This document shows, piece by piece, positions 5,218-30,874 of a stretch of 64,000 nt of DNA (position 1 is the first letter of the stretch; each line of letters begins with the position of its first letter). The notes beneath the pieces were generated by a model. It searched no databases. It was given only the letters and a program-made list of their open reading frames with translations, and was not told where the DNA came from. A program made the position numbers and the translations under genes. The stretch spans positions 1 through 64,000 of the forward strand of contig CAIUWA010000048.1 of assembly GCA_903902745.1 (NCBI GenBank). The letters are read 5' to 3'. The stretch comes from an uncultured Opitutia bacterium. GTDB taxonomy: Bacteria > Verrucomicrobiota > Verrucomicrobiia > Opitutales > Opitutaceae.

Positions 5218-5284
5218 GTGGCCACAAAGCCACCGAGGATTGTTTTGGATCGAACTCAGTGTCTCCAGCTTTCGTGGCTATCTT
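5218..5284. repeat. Degenerate palindromic repeat (GTGGCC/CGTGGC type)
   Basis: The left arm reads GTGGCCACAAAGCCACCGAG near 5219 and the right arm ends CTTTCGTGGCTA near 5270-5281. The arms resemble the better-preserved element at 55667-55782. The copy is degenerate, so the assignment is tentative. Confidence 0.35.
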
Positions 5285-5349
5285 CGGGCAGGTTTTGCCG
5301 CTTGCCTCGCACCGAGGCTTGAGGGGAGGATTTCACTCTTATTTACCCT

Positions 5350-18467: not shown

Positions 18468-18977
18468 TCAGGGGAAGGATACCGGGGCAGTCGCGCCCGG
18501 CCCGGTGAGCGCCCGCTTGAGGGCCGCGCCGACATCGGGAGGCACGAAATGGGACACATCGCCGCCGAACTTCGCGACCTGCTTGACGAGGGACGAGCTG
18601 GTATAGCTGAACTGCTCGTTGGGCATCACGAAGATGGTTTCAATGGCCGGCTGCAGGTGGCGGTTCATCAGCGCCATGTTGAACTCAAACTCGAAGTCCG
18701 ACAGCGCGCGCAGGCCGCGGATGATGGCGTCCGCCTTCTGCGCCAGGGCAAAATCCACGAGCAATCCGCCAAAGGCGGTCACGGTGACATTGGGGAACGG
18801 GACGACGCTGGCGCGCACCTGCGCGAGCCTTTGTTCCGTGGTGAAAAGCGGTCCCTTGCCGGCGTTGTGCGCAATGGCGACGGTCACGCGATCAAAGAGC
18901 TTCGCCGCGCGTGCGAGCACGTCGAGGTGCCCATAGGTGATCGGATCAAAGGTGCCGGGATAGATGCAGTGGCGCAT
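18468..18977 (-). CDS. coaD: Phosphopantetheine adenylyltransferase
   Basis: A 169-residue cytoplasmic enzyme that transfers AMP from ATP to 4'-phosphopantetheine, the fourth step of coenzyme A synthesis. It shows the nucleotidyltransferase motif YPGTFDPITYGH at 5-16 (with the T/HxGH form), RGLRALSDFEFEFNMALMNR in the middle and the second motif SYTSSSLVK. The length is typical of bacterial CoaD. The ATG at 18977 gives the usual MRHCIYPGTFDP start; an upstream in-frame start at 19022 is less likely. It is divergent from pgsA across a palindrome-bearing spacer. Confidence 0.93.
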   Translation of the reverse strand: MRHCIYPGTFDPITYGHLDVLARAAKLFDRVTVAIAHNAGKGPLFTTEQRLAQVRASVVPFPNVTVTAFGGLLVDFALAQKADAIIRGLRALSDFEFEFNMALMNRHLQPAIETIFVMPNEQFSYTSSSLVKQVAKFGGDVSHFVPPDVGAALKRALTGPGATAPVSFP

Positions 18978-19072
18978 GGAGAAAAGTGGGGAAAAGTGAG
19001 CAAGACCGGGAAGCGCCGGCATGGCGAATCACTTTTTCCGGGACATGGAATGGAATGACAGCATGACGGGTC

Positions 19073-19142
19073 GTAGCCGCGGAGGTAACGAGGCTGGGTT
19101 TGCGGTGATCGGCCAAACCCAGCCTCGCTGCCTCGGCTGCTA
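19073..19142. repeat. Palindromic repeat between divergent coaD and pgsA
   Basis: The left arm begins GTAGCCGCGGAGGTAACGAG (from 19073) and continues to 19101. The right arm runs 19115-19142, starting AAACCCAGCCTCG. The arms pair over most of about 28 bases around a 13-base loop. A loosely similar right-arm sequence is near 13491. Confidence 0.7.
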
Positions 19143-19217
19143 TCTTACTTTGTCCGGCCCCATGCTCCGCTATTGCCTTCGGACCACCGGCCGGTGTTTT
19201 CTCGCAGCTCCGGTGCG

Positions 19218-19829
19218 ATGAATCTCCCCAACCAGATCACCCTTTCACGCATCCCGTTGATGTTCGTGATCGTGTGGCTCATGTATCAATCCAGACTGGG
19301 CGCGGCCTCGCTCGCCTTCTGGCTGTTTATCATTGGCGCGGTGAGCGATTGGTACGACGGTTATCTGGCGCGACGGCTGGGCATCGTGTCGGTCTTCGGC
19401 AAGATCATGGATGCGTTGGCGGACAAGATCATGGTGCTCGGCATCATGGTGGCGATGGTGGACCGGCCGTATCATCCCATTCCGCTGGCCTTTGTGCTCA
19501 TCACGCTCTGTCGCGAGTTCCTGGTTTCTGGCATGCGCATGGTGGCGGCGTCCAAGGGCGTGGTGGTCCCGGCCGACCGCGGGGGTAAGACCAAGACCGT
19601 CACCCAGTTGATCGCGATCGGCTGCCTGCTGGCGACCCCGATGGTCGAGACGGACTGGGCGTATTTCCTTTCCCGTTGGGGATTCCAATGCGACCTGAGC
19701 ACGTTCACCGCGGCGCTGCACCGGATCGGCCTGGTGGGCTTCATCCTCGGGACCTTTCTCGCGGTCTGGTCGGGCTGGCGCTACATTCTGCAATACAAGG
19801 ATGTGGTCTTCAGTGACGTGGACAAATGA
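19218..19829 (+). CDS. pgsA: CDP-diacylglycerol-glycerol-3-phosphate 3-phosphatidyltransferase
   Basis: A 203-residue membrane enzyme making phosphatidylglycerophosphate, the committed step to phosphatidylglycerol and cardiolipin. The CDP-alcohol phosphotransferase signature D(x)2DG(x)2AR(x)8G(x)3D(x)3D is complete: D44, D47, G48, A51, R52, G61, D65 and D69. NQITLSRIP at the N-terminus is typical. About five or six membrane helices are visible. Its stop overlaps the start of pgpA by four bases, so the two successive steps are co-translated. The ATG at 19218 is chosen for the family-typical MNLPNQITLSR start. Confidence 0.93.
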   Translation: MNLPNQITLSRIPLMFVIVWLMYQSRLGAASLAFWLFIIGAVSDWYDGYLARRLGIVSVFGKIMDALADKIMVLGIMVAMVDRPYHPIPLAFVLITLCREFLVSGMRMVAASKGVVVPADRGGKTKTVTQLIAIGCLLATPMVETDWAYFLSRWGFQCDLSTFTAALHRIGLVGFILGTFLAVWSGWRYILQYKDVVFSDVDK

Positions 19830-20344
19830 AGCTGTTCCGCCCGCTCTGGCCGCGCGCGCTTTCCACCAAAGTGGTGCTGGGTTGCGCCCGCCTTGGTCCG
19901 ATCGGCCGCAAGCTGCCGGCGCCGGGCACGTGGGGCTCGGTGGCGGGCCTGCTTTATTTCACGGTTTTCTTTGCCCACGGGCTCACCCCGGGCGGGGTGT
20001 TGTTGCTCAATGCCGCGGGCATCTATCTCGCGATCGCGCTGTGCGGCGAAGCGGAGGTGCGCCTTGGCCGCAAGGATCCGGGCGAGGTGATCCTCGATGA
20101 ATTCGTGGCAATGCCCCTGTGCTATCTCGGCTGGCTGCAGCTGGCCGGCATGTGGCCGCGCTGGATCTTGCTGCTGGCCGGACTCGCGCTGTTCCGGCTG
20201 TTCGACATCCTGAAGCCCTTCGGCATCCGCCGGCTGCAGGAACTGCCCGGCGGCTGGGGCGTGGTGATTGATGATGTGGCCGCGGCGCTGGCGACCTGTG
20301 TGACGCTGCATGTTGCGCAGTGGGTATGGCCTCATTGGGGTTGA
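19826..20344 (+). CDS. pgpA: Phosphatidylglycerophosphatase A
   Basis: A 172-residue membrane phosphatase that removes the phosphate from phosphatidylglycerophosphate to give phosphatidylglycerol. Family landmarks are GPIGRKLPAPGTWGS at the N-terminus, KDPGEVILDEFVAMPLCY in the middle and FRLFDILKPFGIRRLQELPGGWGVVIDD, which holds the acidic residues. It follows pgsA with an ATGA overlap. The gene ends before a palindromic repeat that separates it from a convergent NusG-like gene. Confidence 0.93.
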   Translation: MKLFRPLWPRALSTKVVLGCARLGPIGRKLPAPGTWGSVAGLLYFTVFFAHGLTPGGVLLLNAAGIYLAIALCGEAEVRLGRKDPGEVILDEFVAMPLCYLGWLQLAGMWPRWILLLAGLALFRLFDILKPFGIRRLQELPGGWGVVIDDVAAALATCVTLHVAQWVWPHWG

Positions 20345-20378
20345 AGCGGCCCGTGAGGCGCGGCCGCGAGTGCGCGTG

Positions 20379-20428
20379 TTGTAGGCCAGGTCGCTGACCT
20401 GGCAGCCACCTCAACGAGGTGGCCTACA
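20379..20428. repeat. Two-hairpin palindromic repeat, copy 1
   Basis: The outer arms GTAGGCC (20381-20387) and GGCCTAC (20421-20427) enclose two internal hairpins, CCAGGTCGCTGACCTGG and CCACCTCAACGAGGTGG. The reverse complement of this element is nearly identical to 51317-51366. It sits between convergent pgpA and the NusG-like gene. Confidence 0.8.
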
Positions 20429-20464
20429 GTCGATCCAGCGGTGACGCCGCTCGGGTGCCGCGTG

Positions 20465-21007
20465 TCACGGCAGCGGCTGCAAATACTCGATCGGCAGCTT
20501 CACCAGCAAGCCCTGCTGCAGCACGTCCATCGCGACGACAATGCCGTGGGGATTGGACGGATCGTCGACAAAGCCCTCGACGCCGTGCAGCGGGCCGCCG
20601 GTGACCTTCACGCGCCGGCCGCGGGTGAGGAGTGGGTGCAGGCTGAGCTCGAAGCCGGAGGCGACAATGGCCTTCACGTCCGCCAGCTGACGGAGGAAAA
20701 GCGCCTCGCTTTCCACGACGATGGCGCGGGCGAGCAGATCCTGCTGGTAAATGCGACGGCGGCTTTCCACCGGGACCCGGGTGAAGACGTAGCCGGGAAA
20801 AAGCGGCTTAGTGAAACGCTTCGTCTGATGCTGGTAGCGGCGGACACTCTGGACGAGGGGCAGATAATACTCGAACCGCTCGGCCGCCATCAGCGCGGCA
20901 AATTTTTTTTCACAGCGCGGCTTCGTGTGACAGACCAACCAGCCTTCACCGGCCGGGCCGGCGGATGAGGCCGGCGAAGGTGCGGAGGGCAAAAGGACGG
21001 ACGCCAT
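20465..21007 (-). CDS. Specialised NusG paralogue (RfaH/UpxY-like antiterminator)
   Basis: A 180-residue protein with an NGN domain (WLVCHTKPRCEKKFAALMAA at about 23-42, then LFPGYVFTRV) and a C-terminal KOW motif (RGRRVKVTGGPLHGVEGFV at about 128-146). This domain order is that of NusG, but the sequence resembles RfaH/UpxY-type paralogues that suppress pausing in long operons such as polysaccharide clusters. It is not in the usual secE-nusG-rplK context, which supports a specialised role. The target operon is not in the window as far as I can see. The gene is two bases downstream of aroQ. Confidence 0.78.
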   Translation of the reverse strand: MASVLLPSAPSPASSAGPAGEGWLVCHTKPRCEKKFAALMAAERFEYYLPLVQSVRRYQHQTKRFTKPLFPGYVFTRVPVESRRRIYQQDLLARAIVVESEALFLRQLADVKAIVASGFELSLHPLLTRGRRVKVTGGPLHGVEGFVDDPSNPHGIVVAMDVLQQGLLVKLPIEYLQPLP

Positions 21008-21009
21008 CG

Positions 21010-21438
21010 TCAGCGCTTCAGGAGAAAACGGACGGCAGCGTGGTAGCCTTCGAGGCCGAGCCCGCTGATGATGGCGACGCAGGCCGGCGCGGTCAGTGAG
21101 AGATGGCGGAATTCCTCGCGCTTGTAGATGTTGGAGATGTGCACCTCGACGGCGGGCAGATGGGCGCTGAGCAGCGCATCGCGGAGGGCGACGCTGGTGT
21201 GGGTAAGGGCGCCGGCATTGAGCACGAGGCCATCGAACTTCGCGTCGGCCAGGGTGGCGATCTTGTCGATTAGCGCGCCCTCATGGTTCGATTGGAAAAA
21301 ATCCAGCGTAACGCCGGCGCCAAACTCCGCGCGCAATGCCGTTTCGAGGTCGGCCAGGCTCGCGCGACCATAGATCTCGGGTTCGCGCAGGCCGAGCCGG
21401 TCCAGGTTGGGGCCGTTGAGGATGGCGATCTTCTTCAT
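21010..21438 (-). CDS. aroQ: Type II 3-dehydroquinate dehydratase
   Basis: A 142-residue enzyme that dehydrates 3-dehydroquinate in the shikimate pathway. The start MKKIAILNGPNLDRLGLREP and the later EVHISNIYKREEFRH (with the catalytic His region) are characteristic of the small dodecameric type II family. LNAGALTHTSVALRDAL is the substrate-binding segment. The ATG at 21438 is chosen for the family-typical start. The downstream NusG-like gene starts after a two-base gap, suggesting co-transcription. Confidence 0.93.
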   Translation of the reverse strand: MKKIAILNGPNLDRLGLREPEIYGRASLADLETALRAEFGAGVTLDFFQSNHEGALIDKIATLADAKFDGLVLNAGALTHTSVALRDALLSAHLPAVEVHISNIYKREEFRHLSLTAPACVAIISGLGLEGYHAAVRFLLKR

Positions 21439-21511
21439 GCGGAGTATCCGCCCACGGAACACACGGAACACACAGAAGTGAAGACTCAACTTTCCGGGCG
21501 CCCTGTTTGAG

Positions 21512-21605
21512 GGTGGAGCGTGTTGACCTCAACACGCTGTTTGGCTCCGTCGGATCTTCAGCGTGGATTCGGCGCTCCAACGCGTTGAGGTCAACGCGTT
21601 CCACC
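21512..21605. repeat. Palindromic repeat between the Nif3 gene and aroQ
   Basis: Outer arms GGTGGAGCGTG (from 21512) and AACGCGTTCCACC (to 21605) pair imperfectly. Inner palindromes GTGTTGACCTCAACAC and GCGTTGAGGTCAACGC lie next to each arm. Confidence 0.7.
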
Positions 21606-21608
21606 CCC

Positions 21609-22361
21609 TCAGAGCGGATTGCCCGTGGGGATGAACTCCCACGGGAGCTTGAATTTTTTCGCGAGCTCGGCGGCGAGCGCCTGCACGGCGTGGACCTCGG
21701 TGGCGTAGTGGCCGCAGAGGTAGAGGTTGAGGCGCTGCTCCTGGGCGGTGTTGAACCATTCCTCGCGCAGTTCACCGGTGACGAGCGTGTCAACGCCGGC
21801 GGCCGCGAGCTCTGGCACGGCGCTGTTTCCAGCGCCACTGCAAAAGGCCACGGCCGCGGGCGAGGCGGAGCCGTACTCGATCGCGACCACGCGCGGGTAG
21901 AGTGATTCCAACTTCTTGCGCAATGCGGCCCGACTGGATTTTGCCCGGGCGATGCAGCCGATGGCCTCGCCGTCGCGCACGAGGAAAGGTCGCGTGCCCT
22001 TGAGGCCAAGCTGGCGGGCGAGCAGGGCGTTGTTGCCCAGCTCGGGATGGCCGTCCAGGGGCAGATGATTGGAATAGAGCGCGCAGTTGCCCTGCACGAG
22101 CGTGGCCACGCGCTCGTAAACCGGGCCGGTCAGGGGCCGGGGCATGTCCCAATACATGCCGTGGTGCACAATGAGGAAGTCCACGCCGGCGGCGACGGCC
22201 TCCTGGAAGGGCACGAGGCCCGCGTCAACGGCCGCGCCGATCTTCGTCACCCGGCCGTTGTTGGCGACCTGCAGGCCGTTGAAGGCGCCGGGGGCGTCCT
22301 TGTACGCGGCGCGGCGCGTGCGGCGGTCACAGTAGGAGACAAGGTCTGAAAGGGTGGGCAT
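21609..22361 (-). CDS. Nif3-like dinuclear metal-centre protein
   Basis: A 250-residue member of the Nif3/YbgI/DUF34 family, toroidal hexamers with a di-metal site and debated biochemical role (GTP cyclohydrolase I type 2-like or metal chaperone). Visible landmarks are GLQVANNGRVTKIGAAVDAG (about 29-48), FLIVHHGMYW with the metal-binding histidines (about 62-71), NHLPLDGHPELGNNA and VTGELREEWFNTA near the C-terminus. The last residues lie just before a palindromic repeat. Confidence 0.88.
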   Translation of the reverse strand: MPTLSDLVSYCDRRTRRAAYKDAPGAFNGLQVANNGRVTKIGAAVDAGLVPFQEAVAAGVDFLIVHHGMYWDMPRPLTGPVYERVATLVQGNCALYSNHLPLDGHPELGNNALLARQLGLKGTRPFLVRDGEAIGCIARAKSSRAALRKKLESLYPRVVAIEYGSASPAAVAFCSGAGNSAVPELAAAGVDTLVTGELREEWFNTAQEQRLNLYLCGHYATEVHAVQALAAELAKKFKLPWEFIPTGNPL

Positions 22362-22368
22362 GGATCTG

Positions 22369-22432
22369 AATCGTTCTCTTGCTCGAACCGCCGGAATCGA
22401 GAACGAGAACGAGAGAGAGAACGAGAACGATT
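22369..22432. repeat. Palindrome with GAGAAC simple repeats
   Basis: Arms AATCGTTCTC (22369-22378) and GAGAACGATT (22423-22432) are perfect complements. The right half is a run of GAGAACGA units with GAGAGAGA inside. It lies in the spacer between the Nif3 gene and the polyketide synthase gene, and T-rich sequence follows on the plus strand. Confidence 0.7.
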
Positions 22433-22433
22433 T

Positions 22434-23471
22434 TTAAATCCCCGCTCCAATCCGGCAGCTGTGGGCGCTGAAGCCCGCGCCGAAACTCACCAGCCAGAAA
22501 TCACCTTCGGCATCAGGGGTTGCCGACTTCAAGGTTTCCTCCAGCGCGAACAACACCGAGGGACTGCTCATGTTGCCGCAGTCGCGCAGCACGCGCGCGC
22601 TGGCTTCAAGCGAGTGGGGGGCGACGACGGGGGCGAGCGCCTCGAGCACATCGCGGCCACCGGGATGGGCGACGACGCGGGTCACGGGGCGGGGACCCTT
22701 TTCGTTCCAGAGCCGGCCGACGGCGGCGGCGGCGAGTTCCGGTACGGAGCGATCGAGCAGGTTGCGCAGTTTGCCGTCGCGGGTTTCGAACCGCAGCTTG
22801 TCGCGGTCGGCGGGCAGATGCAGGGTGTTGAAATCAAAGCAGCGCAGCGCGCCCGGGCGGGCGGTGGAGCGAAAAATCGTGGCCGCCGCGCCGTCGCTGA
22901 AGAGGCAGGCGCTGATGATCACCCCGGGATCGTCGTCGAGATAGAAGGCCGCTGAGCAAATTTCCACCGCCACGCACGCGACGGTCGCGCCGGGCTGGGC
23001 CGCCAGGACGTGACTGGCGGCGCGCAGGGTCGGAATCGCCGCGCCACAACCGAGGCCCACGAGGTCCTGCAAAAAAACGTTGGGCCGCAGGCCGAGCTGC
23101 TCGGCGACGTAGCTGGTCAGGCCCGGGCAAAGATAACCCGTGCACGTGCAGATGAGCAGGGCGTCGAGCTCGGCCGGCCGCACCCCGGCGCGATCCAGCG
23201 CCGCGGTGAGCGCCGCACTGGCCAGACGCCGGCCCTCCGTGCGGAAGGCGGCGTTGAGCTGGTCGGGCGTGAGATCAAACACGTGGTCGATGTCGGGCAC
23301 GGCAAAATGCCGGGTGGCGATGCCGTGGCTGCCATTCAGGATGCTGTGGAGAATGAGGCGCGAACGCTTCTGCAACCGCGCGCGCGCGTTGGAGCGCTGG
23401 ATGATGTCCCAGCATTGGGGTTGCGTGTAAGTGGCCTCCGGAACGGCGGTGGCAAGGGCGTGGAGATACAT
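22434..23471 (-). CDS. Type III polyketide synthase (chalcone/stilbene synthase family)
   Basis: A 345-residue protein of the thiolase fold. The complete type III PKS triad is present: Cys142 in GLGCGAAIP, His269 in VVAHPGG and Asn300 in RDCGNMSSPS. The C-terminal block FGAGFSAHSCRIG matches the family GPGL region. It probably extends an acyl-CoA starter with malonyl-CoA and cyclises the product. It is the last gene of a three-gene minus-strand operon with a flavoprotein oxidoreductase and a methyltransferase, an arrangement like the Streptomyces srs alkylresorcinol/phenolic-lipid genes. The exact product (alkylresorcinol, pyrone or quinone) cannot be told. Confidence 0.88.
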   Translation of the reverse strand: MYLHALATAVPEATYTQPQCWDIIQRSNARARLQKRSRLILHSILNGSHGIATRHFAVPDIDHVFDLTPDQLNAAFRTEGRRLASAALTAALDRAGVRPAELDALLICTCTGYLCPGLTSYVAEQLGLRPNVFLQDLVGLGCGAAIPTLRAASHVLAAQPGATVACVAVEICSAAFYLDDDPGVIISACLFSDGAAATIFRSTARPGALRCFDFNTLHLPADRDKLRFETRDGKLRNLLDRSVPELAAAAVGRLWNEKGPRPVTRVVAHPGGRDVLEALAPVVAPHSLEASARVLRDCGNMSSPSVLFALEETLKSATPDAEGDFWLVSFGAGFSAHSCRIGAGI

Positions 23472-23499
23472 GAAAACCGGAGGGACGGGTCGAGGTTAC

Positions 23500-24522
23500 T
23501 TAGTGGAGCAGGGCGTAGAGCGGGCGCAGGGGAAGGAGGCGGGCGCGGGTGAGCGCGGACAGCCAGCGCAGCCGGGGCGGTTGGAGGAGAAAGGGATGCA
23601 GCACACCTGCTGACGCGAGACGCAGGCGAAAGTTCCGGCACAATTCGTGGTGGATGAGCCGGCACGTTTCCGGCCACGAGGAAGTCCCGTGGGCGTAGGC
23701 GAGCAACGGATCGAGCGCGAGTTCGGCGCCCTGAAAGGCCATCGCCATGCCGTTGCCGGTAAAGGGAGGAATCATGGCGCACGCATCGCCGAGCCGGGCG
23801 CGCTCCGGCGGAGCGACCCGGTGGTCGAAGGCCACGCCGGCGACGGCGCAAAACGAAGCAGCGTCAAGTTCCGCTGCGGCGAGACGCGCCGCGAGGGCGC
23901 CGAGACCGGCGGCCTGCAGGTAGCCCAGCAACAGATCGTGACCCTTGGCGCAGAGTTCACGGCGACGGAAGAGACCGCAGATGTTCACCTGGTTTCCCTC
24001 GATCTGCGACAGACCGACATAGGCGTACGCGCCCAGATGCAGTTCGAGACCGCGCGCGAGCCGCAGGCCGCGGGCATGGATCTTCAACCCGAGCCACGGT
24101 GAGCGGGCACGACGGCGGCCGGTCGTGAAAATTCGGCCGGGCCGGGCGGCCAGGTCGATTACGCGGGTACGGGTGCGTAATTCGCCACCGGCGGCGACGA
24201 AGGCCTCGGCCAGTCGCGCGTCCAGGGCATGACGGCTGAGCCCGAGCGCCGGCGAGGGCAGGCGCTGGATGTGCGCCGCGCGGTCGCCGATGAACCATGC
24301 GACCTGGCGATGTTCCAAGGCGTCTGCGAGCAGCGGGCCGAGGCCGAGCCGCGCGATGGTGGCGGGCGAGAGCCCCGTGATGAACTCGCCGCACACGCGG
24401 TGCCGCGGGTAGGAGCCCGCCTCGCTAAGTGTGACGGGCACGCCGGCGCGCTGCAGGGCTAGTCCAAGCGAAAGCCCAGCGAGGCCGCCGCCGATGATCT
24501 CAATCGGTCGGGGCGAGCTCAT
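23500..24522 (-). CDS. FAD-dependent oxidoreductase / hydroxylase of the PKS operon
   Basis: A 340-residue flavoprotein. The dinucleotide-binding motif IIGGGLAGLSLGLAL lies at about 9-23, followed by a family-typical PRHRVCGEF (about 39-47) as in the geranylgeranyl reductase/flavin hydroxylase group. GDACAMIPPFTGNGMAMA near residue 240-260 is the second FAD-binding motif (GDAxxxxPPFxGxG). It could hydroxylate or reduce the product of the adjacent type III PKS. Its start overlaps the methyltransferase stop by four bases, and the PKS start is 28 bases past its own stop. Confidence 0.82.
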   Translation of the reverse strand: MSSPRPIEIIGGGLAGLSLGLALQRAGVPVTLSEAGSYPRHRVCGEFITGLSPATIARLGLGPLLADALEHRQVAWFIGDRAAHIQRLPSPALGLSRHALDARLAEAFVAAGGELRTRTRVIDLAARPGRIFTTGRRRARSPWLGLKIHARGLRLARGLELHLGAYAYVGLSQIEGNQVNICGLFRRRELCAKGHDLLLGYLQAAGLGALAARLAAAELDAASFCAVAGVAFDHRVAPPERARLGDACAMIPPFTGNGMAMAFQGAELALDPLLAYAHGTSSWPETCRLIHHELCRNFRLRLASAGVLHPFLLQPPRLRWLSALTRARLLPLRPLYALLH

Positions 24523-25163
24523 GGGCGGCGGATCGCGACCATGCGATAGGCTCCGAGCGCCGTGGTATGGCAGCGGAAATCCCAGTGGCCGTCGTCAAGC
24601 CCGAGTGCAGTGGGGAGTTCACCGTCACGAAAGCCGGCGGCGATACTAACGCGGGCATCGTGCAACGTGACCGGGTTGGCGCCGAACAAGGGGGCAAGCA
24701 GGGCAAAGAGGGTTTGGAAACCGCGCAGACGGAGCGGTTCGCAGGCGACAATCAAGCGCGCGGACCCCCGCAGCTTTCGGCCCAGGCCAGCCAAGTCGTC
24801 CGGGGAAAACTGGTGGAAAATCAAGTTGCCGATGATCACGGGGTAACGGTCAAAGTCTTCAAATTGGAGCAGGTCGTGCTGGTGCCATTCGGCGGCGGCC
24901 GGCCAGTCTCCGGGCCGCGGGCTGAGATCGAGTCCGGCCTCCTGCACTCCGGCGGCGGCGAGACGGATTCCCAGTTCGCCCGTGCCGGCCCCGAGTTCCA
25001 ACGCGCGTTCGCCGGCGCGCTGCAGGGATGGCAGCGTGCGCGCGAACCAGCGGTGATTGCCCATGATGCGGTTGATCAAACGCAAATCGCGCCGGCTGTG
25101 CCGCGCATCCGGATGGTCCGGAGGCAGGGAGTCGAGAAGCTCGGGTTGGAGCGTGCGCTGCAT
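24519..25163 (-). CDS. Class I SAM-dependent methyltransferase of the PKS operon
   Basis: A 214-residue methyltransferase with motif I LELGAGTGELGIRLA, acidic LDLSPRP after strand 2 and VIIGNLIFHQFSPDDL around motif IV. It is the first gene of the operon and overlaps the flavoprotein gene by four bases (24519-24522). By analogy with srsB it may O-methylate a phenolic product; this is inference. The start at 25163 (MQRTLQPELLDSL) is preferred because it avoids overlap with the divergent dCMP deaminase gene; in-frame starts farther upstream exist. Confidence 0.78.
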   Translation of the reverse strand: MQRTLQPELLDSLPPDHPDARHSRRDLRLINRIMGNHRWFARTLPSLQRAGERALELGAGTGELGIRLAAAGVQEAGLDLSPRPGDWPAAAEWHQHDLLQFEDFDRYPVIIGNLIFHQFSPDDLAGLGRKLRGSARLIVACEPLRLRGFQTLFALLAPLFGANPVTLHDARVSIAAGFRDGELPTALGLDDGHWDFRCHTTALGAYRMVAIRRP

Positions 25164-25221
25164 AAAAACGAGACGAAGGTTGCCCGCGCGGGGCGAGGTG
25201 TCCAGAGTGACCCTCAGATTC

Positions 25222-25698
25222 ATGAGTTCGCCCGCCAACCCCGTCGACCTGATTGCCCAAGCCGCGGAGGCTTTTCCGCACCGTCCGTCGTGGGACGAAT
25301 ATTTCATGGCGACCGCCGTGCTGATCGCCTCGCGCTCGGACTGCGAGCGGTTGCATGTCGGCTGCGTGATCGTGACCGGAGGCAACCGCAAGAACCGGCT
25401 CGTAGCGGCTGGCTACAACGGATTTCTGCCCGGCGCGCGGCATACCTCCTACGTCCGCGACGGCCACGAACAGGCCACCGTGCACGCCGAGCAGAATGCC
25501 GTGGCCGACGCTGCGCGCCGCGGCAGCTCGGTCGAGGGCTGCGTGGCCTACGTGACCCATTATCCGTGCGTCAACTGCGCGAAGATCCTCGCCGCCGCGG
25601 GCATCGCCGAGCTGCGATACCGGCAGGATTACACCAATGACCCGCTGGTCGCGACGCTGCTGGCGGACGCGGGGGTCAAGATCCTCAAGCTCGAATAG
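25222..25698 (+). CDS. Deoxycytidylate (dCMP) deaminase / ComEB family
   Basis: A 158-residue zinc hydrolase. It has the deaminase zinc-site motifs HAEQNAV (about 94-100) and PCVNCAK (about 117-123), with an extra N-terminal cysteine region (SDCERLHVGCVIV) typical of dCMP deaminases. It converts dCMP to dUMP, feeding dTMP synthesis. The ATG at 25222 gives MSSPANPVDLI; the frame is open upstream but overlaps the divergent methyltransferase. AlgH follows after six bases. Confidence 0.85.
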   Translation: MSSPANPVDLIAQAAEAFPHRPSWDEYFMATAVLIASRSDCERLHVGCVIVTGGNRKNRLVAAGYNGFLPGARHTSYVRDGHEQATVHAEQNAVADAARRGSSVEGCVAYVTHYPCVNCAKILAAAGIAELRYRQDYTNDPLVATLLADAGVKILKLE

Positions 25699-25704
25699 CC
25701 ACCC

Positions 25705-26262
25705 ATGCGCGAAAGGGTCAAACGGACCGGTTCCAAGAGTCTCGCCGGCTCGCTCCTGCTCGCACATCCCGCACTGAAAGATCCGAACTTCCGCCACACG
25801 GTGATCCTGATGTCGGCCCACAACGGCGAGGGCGCCATGGGTGTCGTGCTCAACCGCCCGCTCGGCAAGCGGCTGGGCGAGTTCAACGGCGAGTTCTCGC
25901 TCGGCCCGCTGGCCTCGGTGCCCGTTTTCCGCGGCGGCCCGGTCCAGACGGAGCAGATCGTGCTGGCGGCCTGGCAAACCCACGACGAAGGCTTCAAGCT
26001 CCACTTTGGCCTGGAGCCGGACAAGGCGGCCCAGTTGGCCGCCGAGGAGGGGATGCACTTGCGGGCGTTTCTCGGGTACTCCGGCTGGTCGGGCGGGCAG
26101 CTCGAAAAGGAGCTCAAGCAGGACACCTGGGTGGTCGCCTCCGTGCCGGGTGACCTGATGAGCCATCCGCAGGACGACGGACTCTGGCGCGCCGTGCTCG
26201 GCGGCATCAGCCTCGACTGGCGCCTCCTCGCCGACGAGCCGGAGGACACGGGACTGAATTGA
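25705..26262 (+). CDS. YqgE/AlgH family protein
   Basis: A 185-residue protein of the UPF0301/AlgH family. Characteristic segments are SLAGSLLLAHPALKDPNFRHTV (about 12-33), GAMGVVLNRPLG (about 44-55), FRGGPVQTEQI and FLGYSGWSGGQLEKEL (about 122-137). The biochemical role is not established; the name comes from an alginate regulatory phenotype in Pseudomonas. It is probably co-transcribed with the dCMP deaminase gene, six bases upstream. Confidence 0.9.
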   Translation: MRERVKRTGSKSLAGSLLLAHPALKDPNFRHTVILMSAHNGEGAMGVVLNRPLGKRLGEFNGEFSLGPLASVPVFRGGPVQTEQIVLAAWQTHDEGFKLHFGLEPDKAAQLAAEEGMHLRAFLGYSGWSGGQLEKELKQDTWVVASVPGDLMSHPQDDGLWRAVLGGISLDWRLLADEPEDTGLN

Positions 26263-26373
26263 ATTCCCTGGGGGTCGACCGGGCATCACCCGGGCGCCGC
26301 GTTCAAAAATAATACCCGATCCCATGAACGGGCGATGGTTGATCCGGCTGGCTGGAAAGGTCTTCTTTCGACT

Positions 26374-26700
26374 ATGAAAATCATACTGGCACTGGTCTGT
26401 TTTTCCCTGCTTTTGGCGGGTTGTACGAGCGCCGGATCCCATGCGCATCGCTTACGGGATGCCTTGGAGGATTACCGGTCGATTGAAAAGGGAATGACCA
26501 GGAAAGAGGTCGTGGCGCTCTTGGGTCAGCCGGATAAAGGAAGCCGTACGGAGAACATTTACTGGAAAGAAGGAGGTAACAGCCCGTATTACACCGATTT
26601 TGTAGAGATGACCGTGAGATACGATGACGATGACCGGGTAGTGGAGACCGATGGGCGCAAGGGAATTGATCGCTACCAGCCCTTGGCTGGGTTACCCTAA
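26374..26700 (+). CDS. Small BamE/SmpA-like lipoprotein
   Basis: A 108-residue protein with a lipoprotein signal [17 protein letters not shown]; the lipobox LLAGC puts the lipidated Cys at 17. The mature part contains [20 protein letters not shown], the usual helix pair of the SmpA/OmlA/BamE fold, followed by a short beta segment. It may act at the outer membrane, in assembly or as a general binding lipoprotein. Base composition is lower in GC than its neighbours, so recent acquisition is possible. The ATG at 26374 starts the signal peptide. Confidence 0.7.
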
Positions 26701-26786
26701 CAAGATCCCGTGAGGGAGCCCGCGCAGCTTCGGAAGTGCTGTCGCGACAACTTCCAATTCAGGCCACTACCGCTGGGACAATTCAG

Positions 26787-26792
26787 TTGACA
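26787..26792 (+). promoter_or_regulatory. Possible -35 element upstream of rpmJ
   Basis: A perfect TTGACA lies about 34 bases before the rpmJ start. The matching -10 (TGTTTT near 26810) is weak. No Shine-Dalgarno precedes the ATG, so the mRNA may have a very short leader. Confidence 0.3.
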
Positions 26793-26825
26793 GGGGTGGG
26801 GCTGCGCTCTGTTTTCAGACCTTTT

Positions 26826-26951
26826 ATGAAAGTCGTATCCTCCATCAAATCAGCCAAGAAGCGCCACCCGGCCTGCCAGGTCGTGCGTCGGAAGGGCAAG
26901 ATTTACGTCATCAACAAAGTCGAGCCGCGCTACAAGGCGCGCCAGGGCTGA
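26826..26951 (+). CDS. rpmJ: Ribosomal protein bL36, zinc-free type
   Basis: A 41-residue protein, [20 protein letters not shown] and on to ...[12 protein letters not shown]. It matches the bL36 form that keeps only one cysteine (Cys17) and so lacks the CxxC...CxxxxH zinc site. It is a component of the large ribosomal subunit. The length, basic composition and end PRYKARQG are typical of this paralogue. It is followed 17 bases later by the likewise zinc-free bL31B gene. The frame continues upstream to 26736 but without family similarity. Confidence 0.95.
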
Positions 26952-26968
26952 TTAACCATTTTACCACT

Positions 26969-27226
26969 GTGAAAGCCGAAGGCCATCCCACCCTCAACAA
27001 CGTTTGCTTCCTCGATGTCGCAACGGGCAAACGTTTCCTCACCCGCTCCACGATGAAGTCCGCCCGCACGGAGAAGATCGACGGTGAAGATTATTTCATC
27101 GTCATCCGCGATGTGACGATGGACTCGCATCCCGCCTACACCGGCGAGAAGCGCCTTGTCGACACCGCGGGCCGCGTCGAGAAGTTCACCTCGAAGTTCA
27201 AGCGCAACGCGCCCGCCAAGAAGTAA
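26969..27226 (+). CDS. rpmE2: Ribosomal protein bL31 type B, zinc-free
   Basis: An 85-residue large-subunit protein with a GTG start, MKAEGHPTLNNVCFLDVATG. It lacks the CxxC pair of zinc-binding bL31 and has the extra length of type B (SKFKRNAPAKK at the end). In many bacteria type B bL31 and C-minus bL36 are induced by zinc limitation through Zur; no obvious Zur box is seen here. It ends just before a strong intrinsic terminator. Confidence 0.92.
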   Translation: MKAEGHPTLNNVCFLDVATGKRFLTRSTMKSARTEKIDGEDYFIVIRDVTMDSHPAYTGEKRLVDTAGRVEKFTSKFKRNAPAKK

Positions 27227-27251
27227 GCGGCGGGTTTGCTCCCCAGTTTCC

Positions 27252-27277
27252 AGCCCTCCTGCGTGGAGGGCTTTTTT
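27252..27277 (+). terminator. Intrinsic terminator after the rpmJ-rpmE2 pair
   Basis: Arms AGCCCTCC (27252-27259) and GGAGGGCT (27265-27272) form an eight-base stem with a five-base loop, followed by a T-run (27272-27277). Confidence 0.85.
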
Positions 27278-27285
27278 ATGGGTGG

Positions 27286-27424
27286 GTGGCCGGGGTGGAT
27301 TGGGACAAGGTGGGCGTCCCCGCCGACTGGTCTCGCCGAAGCCTTGGCGAAGGTGAAGCCGCGGTCTGGGATCGTGAGCTTGTCGAACGGCGCACCGGGA
27401 CGGTTCGCCCTATCTTTGGCTGCC
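27286..27424. repeat. Composite degenerate repeat between rpmE2 and the DUF1015 gene
   Basis: The stretch contains CGCCGAAGCCTTGGCGAAG (27334-27352), the exact reverse complement of the motif inside glmM at 47546-47564. It also ends with a copy of GGTTCGCCCTA, seen in the repeat at 8327-8380. It is a patchwork of at least two repeat families. Confidence 0.6.
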
Positions 27425-27465
27425 CGCTTGACGCAAAGCAGCGCTGGCTTCTGCATGGCGCCTTT

Positions 27466-28680
27466 ATGCGAATCCGCGCCTTTCAAGGTCTTGTCCCTCA
27501 GCCTGCACACGTCGCCGAAGTGGCGTGCGTGCCTTACGATGTCGTCAATGCGGCCGAGGCGACCGTACTCGCCGCCGGGAAGCCGCGCAGCCTGCTGCAC
27601 GTCGATCGCGCCGAAATCGACCTGCCGCCGAAAACGGATCCGTATGGCGACGTAGTTTATGCCAAGGCCCGGGAAAACTTTCTGGCACTGCAGCGCGACG
27701 GCGTGCTGGTGCGCGAGAGCGGTCCGTGTCTCTACGTTTACCAGCAGCAGATGGGTTCGCACCGCCAGCGCGGCCTCGTGGCCGTCTGCCATGTGGAGGA
27801 CTATGACGCCGAGCTCATCAAGAAGCATGAGAAGACGCGCAAGGACAAGGAGGACGATCGCACGCGCCTGATCGACACGCTCGGGGCAAACACGGGTCCG
27901 GTGTTCCTCACGTACCGCGACGAGACCGCGGTCACCGCGCTGGTTGATGCCAAGGTCAAGGAAGCGCCGCTCCATGATTTCACCGCGCCCGACGGCATCC
28001 GGCACACGGTCTGGCGCATTGCCGGCGGCGCCGACTGGGTGCGCGCCTTTGGTCGCGTGCCATTGACCTACATTGCCGACGGTCATCACCGGGCGGCGAG
28101 TGCCGCGCGGGTGGCGCGTCTTCGCCGCGAAAAGAATCCGCAGCACACGGGCGCGGAGGATTACAACTGGTTCCTGTGCGTGCTTTTTCCCGCAAGTGAA
28201 CTGAAGATTTTGCCGTACAACCGCATCGTGCTCGACCTCAATGGCCGCGCCCCTGCGACTTTCCTCGCCGAGGTGAAGGCGAAGTTCGGCCTGGAGGAAA
28301 ATGCACCCCCGGCGCCGACCGCGATCGGGCAGGTGAGCATGTATCTCGGCGGGAAATGGTACGGGCTGCGCTGCCCGGCCGATCCGAAGGCGGATCCCGT
28401 GGCGCGACTGGACGTGAGCGTGCTGCAGGACAAGCTGCTGGCCCCGCTGCTCGGCATCGACGATCCCCGCACGAGCAAGCGCGTCGACTTTGTCGGCGGC
28501 ATCCGCGGACCCGGCGAGTTGGTGAAGCGGGTCGATGCCGAAGGCGGCGTGGCGTTTTCCCTTTTTCCCGTGACGATCGCGCAGCTCATGGACATCGCCG
28601 ACGCGGGGCAGATCATGCCGCCGAAAAGCACTTGGTTTGAGCCGAAGCTGCGCTCGGGATTCTTCATCCACACTTTCTGA
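27466..28680 (+). CDS. DUF1015 family protein
   Basis: A 404-residue protein beginning MRIRAFQGLVPQPAHVAEVA, which is the characteristic start of DUF1015 proteins (COG4198). Other family landmarks are CVPYDVVNAAE, RSLLHVDR, YIADGHHRAASAARV with the conserved GHHR (about 204-207), and FVGGIRGPGEL. The family has no assigned activity; the GHHR motif suggests catalysis or metal/phosphate binding. The start at 27466 is chosen for the conserved N-terminus; the open frame runs back into repeat DNA. Confidence 0.88.
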   Translation: MRIRAFQGLVPQPAHVAEVACVPYDVVNAAEATVLAAGKPRSLLHVDRAEIDLPPKTDPYGDVVYAKARENFLALQRDGVLVRESGPCLYVYQQQMGSHRQRGLVAVCHVEDYDAELIKKHEKTRKDKEDDRTRLIDTLGANTGPVFLTYRDETAVTALVDAKVKEAPLHDFTAPDGIRHTVWRIAGGADWVRAFGRVPLTYIADGHHRAASAARVARLRREKNPQHTGAEDYNWFLCVLFPASELKILPYNRIVLDLNGRAPATFLAEVKAKFGLEENAPPAPTAIGQVSMYLGGKWYGLRCPADPKADPVARLDVSVLQDKLLAPLLGIDDPRTSKRVDFVGGIRGPGELVKRVDAEGGVAFSLFPVTIAQLMDIADAGQIMPPKSTWFEPKLRSGFFIHTF

Positions 28681-28694
28681 AGGTGGGAGCAGGG

Positions 28695-28795
28695 AGTTGG
28701 TATTTGGTAATGGGGACGGAATCGGAGGGTGCGCGCGTCATCCGGGATCTGTTTCCGACCCAATTCCCAATTCCAAATTCCTATTTCCCCATTCC
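28695..28795. repeat. AT-richer inverted repeat between convergent genes
   Basis: The left arm AGTTGGTATTTGGTAATGGG (from 28695) pairs loosely with a right arm containing CAATTCCAAATTCC and CCCCATTCC (28761-28795). It separates the DUF1015 gene from the convergent membrane methyltransferase-like gene and is a likely two-way terminator. Confidence 0.55.
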
Positions 28796-28801
28796 TCGCG
28801 C

Positions 28802-30874
28802 CTACGCGCGTCCCGAACGTAGCGCCGGGCCGGCGCGGACGCCGAGCCAGAGCGCCAGCAGGTAGAGCAGGGCGGCGAGCAGGAACAGCGCCCGCAGGCC
28901 GAACAGCATGGAAGAGAGCTCGAGGATTCCGCCCGCGACGGCCCCAACGATGTTCCAGCCGAAGGCGACGGCCACGTTGGTGCGCACCGCGAAGCGCGCG
29001 GCAAAGGCCAGCCCGGCGCAGGCCACCGGCGTACCGCAGACGACGAGGGCAAACAGCACGCGAGCGGCCTCGCCAGTTGGCGCCAGGGTCCGCAAGGGCA
29101 GGAAGGCGAAAACGGTGAGCGCTACGATTACCCCGGTCAGTGCGAGGCGGGCATCGATCCTGCGGCGCGCCGCGGCGAGCGTGGCCAGGAGCAGGGCGAA
29201 CAGCAGTGCGGCGAACACGATCGCACTCGTCCGCCAGGTTGCGCCGAAGAGAAGATTCATCTCGGTGACAAAACTCGTTTCGACGAGCAGGAACGCCGCG
29301 CCAAAGAGCATCATCTCCACATCGATCCGGCCGGCGAAGACCGCGTGACGCAGCGAGGTCGAGACGGAGAGCAGCAGGACGGCGGAGATGCCCAGCACGA
29401 CCCCGGCAATGCCGAAGTAAAACGAGGGCACGCCCGCCCGCTCGAGGTAGAGGTAGGGCCAGTCATCGCCGGGCGCCGTGAGCCGGCCGGCGACGGGTTC
29501 CTTCAGCGGGTCATGGAGCTGCGGGTTCGCGGCCAGGTGCGCGAAGCCCGGCCCGGCCAGATAGAGGTGGTTGAACATCCCGTAGTAATGTTTCCAGACG
29601 AGCGGCGGGGTGCCGAAGGCCTGGGTCAGGATCGCAAAGAGGTGCGCGTCGATGTAGTCCTCGTTCACCATGAACATCAGCGCGAGGCCGCCCTCGGGGC
29701 TGAGGTGGGCGCGGGCGGCGCGCACGCTTTCCACGGTGTAGACAAAATTGTCGAGGCGCACGTTGGCCAGCGCCGACAGGCGGGTCATGGAATCGAGCGT
29801 GCCGAAAATGATGAGGTCAAACTTGAGGTCGGTGCTTTCCAGGAACGCGCGCGCATCCGTGTTGTGAACGATCACCCGCGGGTCGTCGTAGGGCCGCGCG
29901 GGATGGCGGGTCCGGCCAATCTCGACAATGACGGGGTCAATCTCCACCGCGTGCACCTCGGGCACGCCGGCGTCGAGCAGGACCGACACATCGTTGCCCG
30001 TGCCGGCGCCGAGCACCAGGGCGCGGGCCGGCTTCCGCAGGAGGCTCCTCACGGGGAGCTGATAACCCAGGCGCATCAACTCCCGCGTCGGGTTGGGGGG
30101 ACCGGGCCGGTTTTCGCGCAGGTCCATCATGTTCTGATGGAGCGATCCATTGGTCAGGACGCTAATGCCACCGTTGGGATCCTCCGGGGCCAGCCGCACG
30201 GCATAATAGGGGCTGTACCACTGCGCACGATCGGTCAGGTGGATCGCGGCCAGCACGGCGAGGGCGGGCAAGGCATAGCCCAGGCGCGACCACCATTTTG
30301 CCGGCACGACCACCGCCGCCGCTCCCAGCCCGAGGGCGAACCACCAGACCGGCCGGGTGCCGCCGGCGGAGAGCAGCAGGAAGGTCAGGACTCCGGTGAG
30401 CGAACCGAGAAGATCCAGTGCATAGCCCGCCAGGGGCCGGCCGCGTTCCTGGAACTGCTGGATGCGTCCCGCGATCGTCCCACCGAGCGGCACGAAGGCG
30501 AGAGCCACCAGCGCAAACACGAGGGCGAGGGGCAGGGTGACGCCGTGGACCACCGGGGCGTCGTGCGGGAGGTCGAAATACAGGAGCCAGAGATGCTCGC
30601 TGGGGCTGCTGGAGGTGAAGGCGATGCGGCCGAGGCCGAGAGCCAGTGCGACCACGGCTAGCACGCCGGTGCCGAGCAGGGCGCTGCGCCCGAAGCGAGC
30701 GAGCGCGCCCACGCCGAGCCCGAGAAAGGCGGCGATCAGCACGAGGTTCGGAAAATACGCGATGACGCGAACCTGGCCCGGCAGCCAGCGGATCAACGCC
30801 AGCTCCAGGAGCAGCGCGGCAAAGGAGGCGGCCAGCAACTCAATCCCGGTCCGTCGTAAAGTCGTGGTCGTCAA
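28802..30874 (-). CDS. Membrane protein with spermidine-synthase-like domain
   Basis: A 690-residue protein with about seven N-terminal membrane helices (residues about 8-245), a cytosolic Rossmann domain (about 285-440) with VLGAGTGNDVSVLLDAG and EIDPVIVEIGRTRHP, and about six C-terminal helices. This is the layout of 'fused MFS/spermidine synthase' proteins common in environmental bacteria. Whether it really makes polyamines is doubtful, because the usual D of the spermidine synthase gatekeeper segment reads FGTLDSMTRL. Substrate is unknown. It is convergent with the DUF1015 gene and upstream of mscL on the same strand. Confidence 0.78.
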   Translation of the reverse strand: MTTTTLRRTGIELLAASFAALLLELALIRWLPGQVRVIAYFPNLVLIAAFLGLGVGALARFGRSALLGTGVLAVVALALGLGRIAFTSSSPSEHLWLLYFDLPHDAPVVHGVTLPLALVFALVALAFVPLGGTIAGRIQQFQERGRPLAGYALDLLGSLTGVLTFLLLSAGGTRPVWWFALGLGAAAVVVPAKWWSRLGYALPALAVLAAIHLTDRAQWYSPYYAVRLAPEDPNGGISVLTNGSLHQNMMDLRENRPGPPNPTRELMRLGYQLPVRSLLRKPARALVLGAGTGNDVSVLLDAGVPEVHAVEIDPVIVEIGRTRHPARPYDDPRVIVHNTDARAFLESTDLKFDLIIFGTLDSMTRLSALANVRLDNFVYTVESVRAARAHLSPEGGLALMFMVNEDYIDAHLFAILTQAFGTPPLVWKHYYGMFNHLYLAGPGFAHLAANPQLHDPLKEPVAGRLTAPGDDWPYLYLERAGVPSFYFGIAGVVLGISAVLLLSVSTSLRHAVFAGRIDVEMMLFGAAFLLVETSFVTEMNLLFGATWRTSAIVFAALLFALLLATLAAARRRIDARLALTGVIVALTVFAFLPLRTLAPTGEAARVLFALVVCGTPVACAGLAFAARFAVRTNVAVAFGWNIVGAVAGGILELSSMLFGLRALFLLAALLYLLALWLGVRAGPALRSGRA

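Follow-up and report, generated by a model that had tools for sequence, protein, structure and literature searches.

Operons that bring together a type III polyketide synthase (PKS), an oxidoreductase and a methyltransferase have been described in cyanobacteria, planctomycetes and Streptomyces. Here we describe such a cassette from an uncultured Opitutia bacterium (Verrucomicrobiota; Opitutaceae), in a 64,000-nucleotide stretch of contig CAIUWA010000048.1 (positions 1 to 64,000) that is referred to at its whole length as the window. The cassette encodes a class I S-adenosylmethionine (SAM)-dependent methyltransferase (MT), an FAD-dependent oxidoreductase (FAD) and a type III PKS. In hidABC, the hierridin operon of picocyanobacteria (Cyanobium sp. 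LEGE 06113), an MT, an oxidoreductase and a type III PKS follow one another in the order found in the window. A second order, hidC-hidA-hidB, is also reported from cyanobacteria (PMC8086630), and this permuted PKS-MT-FAD arrangement is found in the window's class as well.

The mtr-fdo-t3pks operon of the planctomycetes Gimesia maris and Rhodopirellula baltica shares both its gene order and its enzyme classes with the window (PMC10896814), and its PKS matches the Pfam models PF00195 and PF02797. Protein identity between members of the cyanobacterial and planctomycete operons is given as 48–55%. Expression in C. glutamicum is reported to yield C15 and/or C17 alkylresorcinols for the PKSs from the full operons of G. 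maris and R. baltica, and also for that of S. maiorica, which has no oxidoreductase gene; no product is reported for two planctomycete PKSs from outside such operons (PMC10896814). The MT and FAD of G. maris are described as adding one methyl group, probably on carbon (PMC10896814). In the srsABC operon of Streptomyces griseus, a type III PKS, a flavin monooxygenase and a methyltransferase are encoded together, the same enzyme classes as in the window.

The window cassette is a real, conserved specialized-metabolite operon whose genes co-occur as a block. On balance, though only just, we judge that it would be a self-contained biosynthetic operon for a hierridin-type methylated lipid, phenolic or quinol in nature, with a 5-alkylresorcinol as the most likely intermediate. 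Operons of this kind are already known, and the uncharacterized lineage to which the PKS belongs is the most interesting part of the locus.

Conservation and linkage of the three genes

All three open reading frames (ORFs) are intact and are read from the minus strand as MT-FAD-PKS. In a sample of the phylum, 74 of 288 genomes contain a PKS match (E 1e-15), and loci were opened in 60 of the 73 relatives, leaving out the 13 weakest. The class sample comprises 286 genomes, with PKS matches in 102 (E 1e-40), FAD matches in 103 (E 1e-30) and MT matches in 89 (E 1e-15); in the window's own family the PKS occurs in 12 of 30 genomes. The PKS and FAD are present in the same 98 class genomes (Fisher p about 1e-64) and the PKS and MT in the same 76 (p about 7e-33), both values ignoring relatedness. 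The MAG (metagenome-assembled genome) relatives nearest by PKS are labeled Opitutae, Verrucomicrobia, Opitutaceae and Lacunisphaera.

The 102 class genomes with a PKS match contain 103 PKS places, and at 96 of these an FAD gene is found no more than 3 kb away in the same orientation. The order MT-FAD-PKS is found at 59 places (window included), PKS-MT-FAD at 12, PKS-FAD at 19 and FAD-PKS at 6, and the PKS stands alone at 7. Twelve of the 19 PKS-FAD places were opened, and every one has an MT ORF between both genes that is too diverged for the initial search. Three genomes (G131, G210 and G447) carry the MT-FAD pair elsewhere, still adjacent. Across the 32 clade-A loci that have the complete trio, pairwise distances are correlated (r 0.92, 0.84 and 0.85), and none of 2000 permutations gave a value as high, shared ancestry not being removed.

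The linkage is not strict at the cut-offs used: five genomes have an FAD match without a PKS match and 13 have an MT match without one, although a clade C PKS lies below the cut-off in 5 of these 13. Because no other same-strand neighbor recurs beyond 7 of 31 MT-FAD-PKS loci, 4 of 13 PKS-MT-FAD loci or 4 of 10 clade B loci, the trio looks self-sufficient. In the window itself, the same-strand neighbors beyond the trio have housekeeping-type Pfam matches or no match of known function. Four of the 10 clade B loci (L071 to L080) have, upstream of the PKS and in the same orientation, an ORF that resembles peptidase U32 (one of the four was scanned).

The type III PKS and its lineage

The complete Cys-His-Asn triad that an earlier sequence-only reading of this locus had ascribed to the PKS is borne out by alignment with alfalfa CHS2, in which C142, H269 and N300 correspond to C164, H303 and N336. 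The triad columns are invariant in a 53-row alignment, and the sole row without Cys at chalcone synthase (CHS) position 164 is L034, a MAG copy with an odd 5' end. The protein scores above the Pfam cut-offs for FAE1_CUT1_RppA (63.9 bits), Chal_sti_synt_N (50.7 bits) and Chal_sti_synt_C (31.5 bits). Its predicted model (pLDDT 96.1, pTM 0.94) has Pks11 as its best structural match (4jat; Z 47.0, rmsd 1.7, 337 residues aligned); CylI, which has also been solved with a resorcinol product, gives Z 43.8 and rmsd 2.0 over 335 residues. At L070 (genome G152, 5271–6325), the PKS is split into two overlapping ORFs of 76 and 289 amino acids, by a frameshift or an assembly error.

Two positions set the lineage apart. 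The residue at CHS position 265 is Asn237 in the window PKS and Asn in 50 of 50 rows of the lineage, and in none of the characterized references aligned; in clade C it is Ile (10 rows) or Met (6 rows). In addition, the signature loop at CHS 374–376 reads GAG in all 50 lineage rows, with Ala in place of Pro, and GPG in all 29 other rows. Further alignments to PDB entries show SPG in 4b0n and APG in 7cb3, so that the Pro is kept in both. According to Larsen et al. (PMC8086630), CHS 265 is occupied by Met in enzymes of the HidC clade and by Asn or Gln in those of the CylI clade; Asn alone is therefore not unique to the lineage. However, no other type III PKS in our alignments combines Asn at CHS 265 with a loop that lacks the signature Pro. 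Clade A shows two further fixed residues, Phe at CHS 256 and Ser at CHS 211 (39 of 39).

The loss of the loop Pro throughout the lineage raises the question of whether the enzyme has left polyketide synthesis for a single condensation of the KAS III kind. The protein does score above the Pfam cut-off for ACP_syn_III_C (35.0 versus 26.6 bits), and KAS III models match it below their own cut-offs (PRK09352, 1e-13). However, the type III PKS models among the Pfam matches above score higher (63.9 and 50.7 bits), as does the type III model compared directly with KAS III (133 versus 51 bits), the best 50 structural matches listed are all type III PKSs, and Phe at CHS 215 is retained in 79 of 79 rows. 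A KAS III-like function is thus very improbable. Since the triad, the fold and the models hold, we take the missing Pro as a trait of the lineage that leaves its membership of the type III PKSs intact.

We constructed a careful tree of 69 PKS rows and a quick tree of 79. The split PKS at L070 was left out of both, and the careful tree is also without L084, L103, L105 and nine thinned clade-A rows. Neither tree contains a HidC, planctomycete, SrsA or Ars sequence, and Pks11, grouped with SrsA by Larsen et al. (PMC8086630), serves as a stand-in for SrsA. The window PKS falls in a clade of genomes of its own class that is joined with Caballeronia (95/86). Together with ten further Verrucomicrobiota these form a lineage of 41 rows (100/99), with 50 such rows in the quick tree. 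The THNS/Pks11/Rhizobium sequences (98/96) and clade C, which comprises 16 rows from Verrucomicrobiota and Deinococcus (93/76), are separate groups. The PKS belongs to a separate, well-supported and uncharacterized lineage and, by the residue reported for the HidC clade at CHS 265, is not HidC-like. A comparison by eye of the primer-encoded ends of the planctomycete genes with those of clades A to C did not place anything, the ends being too short.

Topology was examined further by the approximately unbiased (AU) test. Since the first tree was known when the groups were chosen, the p-values are indicative. A union of the window lineage with Pks11 is rejected (p-AU 0.0035), a union with clade C is marginally rejected (p-AU 0.045), and a union with the whole THNS/Pks11/Rhizobium group is not rejected (p-AU 0.153).

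These results bear on the kind of ring that the PKS forms. The cassette might work as proposed but with a PKS that releases an alkylpyrone by lactonization, which is then oxidized and methylated; the top structural match, Pks11, is an alkylpyrone synthase, and the altered loop and the polar residue at CHS 265 leave the choice of ring open. The exclusion of a clade with Pks11 alone argues against this, as do the resorcinols reported from planctomycete operons of the same order (PMC10896814), and a flavoprotein resembling ring hydroxylases would be better suited to a phenol. We consider an alkylpyrone unlikely.

DpgA, the 3,5-dihydroxyphenylacetyl-CoA synthase, which condenses four malonyl-CoA (PMC8086630), is sister to the window lineage in the careful tree (96/91). 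It was one of the enzymes that the sequence-only reading had proposed for a PKS phylogeny; it is probably the nearest characterized relative, but not firmly so, because a clade with the THNS/Pks11 group is not rejected. At CHS 265 and the loop, two DpgA-type rows have Phe and GPG, whereas the window lineage has Asn and GAG. The DpgA model NF042429 is the only type III PKS model in NCBIfam that scores with the window PKS (1e-38), at 133.2 bits, far below its cut-off of 425. This match was set aside as a sign of function, as the model is non-discriminating and matches 50 of 50 aligned PKS homologs, clade C included. A synthase of the DpgA or THNS type, using malonyl or a short starter to make a small methylated, hydroxylated aromatic or quinone, would agree with the sister position and with the only scoring model, but it is rather unlikely given the low score, the loose placement of DpgA and the lack of a dpgB/C/D-type (enoyl-CoA hydratase type) gene among the eleven neighbors scanned from 18468 to 30874.

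The cassette could also be orthologous to hidABC or the planctomycete operon, through movement between phyla, and have a hierridin-like product. The three functions, their order and the alternative order are all shared. However, the Met reported for the HidC clade at CHS 265 (PMC8086630), a comparison by reported residue only, differs from the Asn of all 50 lineage rows, and in Verrucomicrobiota the Met/Ile type is clade C, whose union with the window lineage is marginally rejected. Such a transfer is therefore improbable.

A related cassette from outside the phylum is on a plasmid of Caballeronia sp. SBC2 (NZ_CP049319). Its PKS is 42.5% identical to that of the window and has Asn at CHS 265, the GAG loop and adjacent MT and FAD genes, although the FAD and MT are only 27% and 32% identical to their window counterparts. 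The genes run PKS-MT-FAD and are followed by acyl carrier protein (ACP) and ketosynthase genes; the cassette is uncharacterized as far as the record shows. A single ORF separates the five-gene Caballeronia run (L096, 2517–10708) from a gene for a site-specific integrase, which it follows downstream at a distance of about 1.5 kb. Among plasmid records, 176 have a PKS match, of which 12 were opened from 40 listed; searches with the MT and FAD returned only Mesorhizobium, Caballeronia and four Novosphingobium records. On a Sphingobium plasmid (L101, 3662–6529), a PKS labeled chalcone synthase lies beside two 'hypothetical' ORFs that match the FAD and MT profiles, the latter on the opposite strand.

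A broader reading of the lineage is tentative, and we put it at somewhat less than an even chance. The PKS may represent an uncharacterized subfamily of type III PKSs in which the Asn gate and Pro-less loop govern cyclization or the choice of starter, leading to a phenolic metabolite undescribed from any bacterium. The subfamily would occur across the window's class, with outlying members in other Verrucomicrobiota and in Caballeronia, and would have reached the MT/FAD partnership and both gene orders of the hierridin operons on a different PKS lineage.

Tailoring enzymes and the proposed product

The FAD protein scores above the Pfam cut-off for FAD_binding_3 (25.1 bits, cut-off 22). Its predicted model (pLDDT 91.0) is closest to PltA (5dbj; Z 31.7, rmsd 3.1, 328 residues aligned), followed by ChlB4 (Z 31.4), TrlE (30.6), squalene epoxidase (30.4), indole monooxygenase (30.3) and 3-hydroxybenzoate 6-hydroxylase (29.6). 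The fold is predicted to be that of group A flavoprotein monooxygenases and phenolic halogenases. A glycine-aspartate motif is usual in group A monooxygenases; where it is expected, the FAD homologs have a conserved Gly-Arg followed by W-x-G-L-K-x-H. The shared flavoprotein fold does not by itself prove hydroxylation, and the monooxygenase reaction is a predicted one.

For the class I MT, neither the Pfam model Methyltransf_23 nor PRK06202 (4e-10) reaches its cut-off, and PRK06202, described as 'hypothetical protein', matches 33 of 33 aligned MT homologs. The MT alignment omits L034, L067 and L070, and the FAD alignment L033 and L070. Six genomes of the class (G265, G323, G329, G333, G343 and G400; f8) contain MT homologs and no PKS match at the cut-off. 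The homologs are doubled in G323, G333 and G343, and the G400 copy has an internal stop; perhaps the MT family has other duties in these six genomes.

The sequence-only reading had likened the cassette to srsABC. The names srsA, srsB and srsC imply the order PKS, MT, FAD for that operon. The numbering in PMC6669644 also places the PKS gene first, as opposed to MT-FAD-PKS in the window, but gene order is a weak argument here because PKS-MT-FAD also occurs in the window's class. SrsB is described as an isoprenylcysteine carboxyl methyltransferase (PMC6669644), a family different from the class I MT, and no member of that family is among the Pfam matches of the window MT at E 0.01. With Pks11 as the proxy, the PKS of the window would also belong to another clade, while a grouping with the wider THNS/Pks11/Rhizobium set is not rejected. 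The likeness therefore holds for the enzyme classes, and an srs-like sequence of polyketide synthesis, oxygenation and methylation is plausible; the kinship is weak. True membership of the srsABC family, which the three shared classes and the occurrence of the srsA-B-C order in other genomes of the class would favor, is scarcely credible.

The analogy with hidABC and the planctomycete operon, which have the same functions in the same order, led us to propose a long-chain, ring-oxidized and methylated phenol. The PKS would be primed with an acyl group, most probably a long-chain fatty one carried by CoA or ACP, and would extend it by about three malonyl units before closing a phenolic ring, with a 5-alkylresorcinol as the most likely result. 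Ring hydroxylation by the flavoprotein would come next, followed by methylation on oxygen or carbon by the class I MT; the end product would be a hierridin-type lipid, a methylated phenol or quinol. The ACP and ketosynthase genes of the Caballeronia cassette fit with an acyl starter and offer a hint in this direction. The C15 and/or C17 alkylresorcinols are known products of the planctomycete operon, whereas for the window cassette such a compound is a prediction.

Several observations weigh against this proposal. The nearest characterized relative in the tree is DpgA, a four-malonyl-CoA enzyme, and the combination of Asn at CHS 265 with GAG for GPG is unlike the aligned characterized references, so that neither ring type nor starter can be transferred from them. 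The published account of G. maris describes a C-methyltransferase-like MT and leaves the role of its FAD enzyme open (PMC10896814). The trio is also incomplete in places: the PKS-bearing genomes G128, G228, G340 and G430 lack an FAD match at E 1e-30 (in G128 and G228 the MT is missing as well at the cut-offs used), L118 to L120 when opened show FAD-PKS without a recognizable MT alongside, and L033 has an MT and then a PKS with no FAD between. The association is looser in clade B (MT at 7 and FAD at 3 of 10 loci) and in clade C (MT at 10 and FAD at 13 of 16).

Genomic surroundings and significance

The sequence-only reading placed a three-gene operon at 22434–25163 and noted a four-base overlap of the flavoprotein and methyltransferase genes, and both agree exactly with the coordinates given in Table 1. 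The overlap reads ATGA, and the intergenic gap between FAD and PKS is 28 bp. This spacing suggests a translationally coupled operon. A promoter scan found none, and a scan for terminator-like sites returned 4, compared with 2.4 expected.

Table 1. Coordinates of the cassette genes and of the gene overlap within the window
Feature	Coordinates	Strand	Size	Basis
Class I SAM-dependent MT, gene 1 of operon	24519..25163	-	214 aa	Methyltransf_23 and PRK06202-like, both under cut-off
FAD-dependent oxidoreductase (FAD), gene 2	23500..24522	-	340 aa	FAD_binding_3 over cut-off; predicted fold
ATGA overlap, MT stop / FAD start	24519..24522	-	4 bp	Sequence
Type III PKS, gene 3	22434..23471	-	345 aa	Pfam models, triad, CHS alignment

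Cytidylyltransferase-like, NusG-like, dehydroquinase II and NIF3-like genes flank the cassette within 18468–22361, and a divergent deaminase gene lies upstream at 25222–25698. These flanking genes recur beside the cassette in about 7 to 10 close relatives, and the cassette therefore has a fixed place in the close family. Between the PKS stop codon and the downstream NIF3-like gene is a tandem repeat of the six bases CGAGAA (22398–22430; 5.5 copies, 85% matches).

Type III PKS regions are reported from an Opitutales strain (PMC12193912, PMC10927696) and from Oceaniferula (PMC9865893), without a product. Among the open-licence papers listed, none was found that gives a product of a cassette like this, or tests its function, in Opitutaceae or other Verrucomicrobiota, in agreement with the sequence-only reading, which knew of no described product from Opitutaceae.

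Soil and water harbor abundant Verrucomicrobiota, about whose small molecules little is known. The presence of the three-gene unit in about a third of the sampled class genomes indicates a common, unstudied phenolic metabolite, and the need for no more than three genes should make it readily accessible. With its invariant Asn and Pro-less loop, the lineage provides a ready test of the part that the loop plays in type III PKSs. Finally, the two gene orders held in common with the cyanobacterial hierridin clusters raise the question of convergence or partner exchange.

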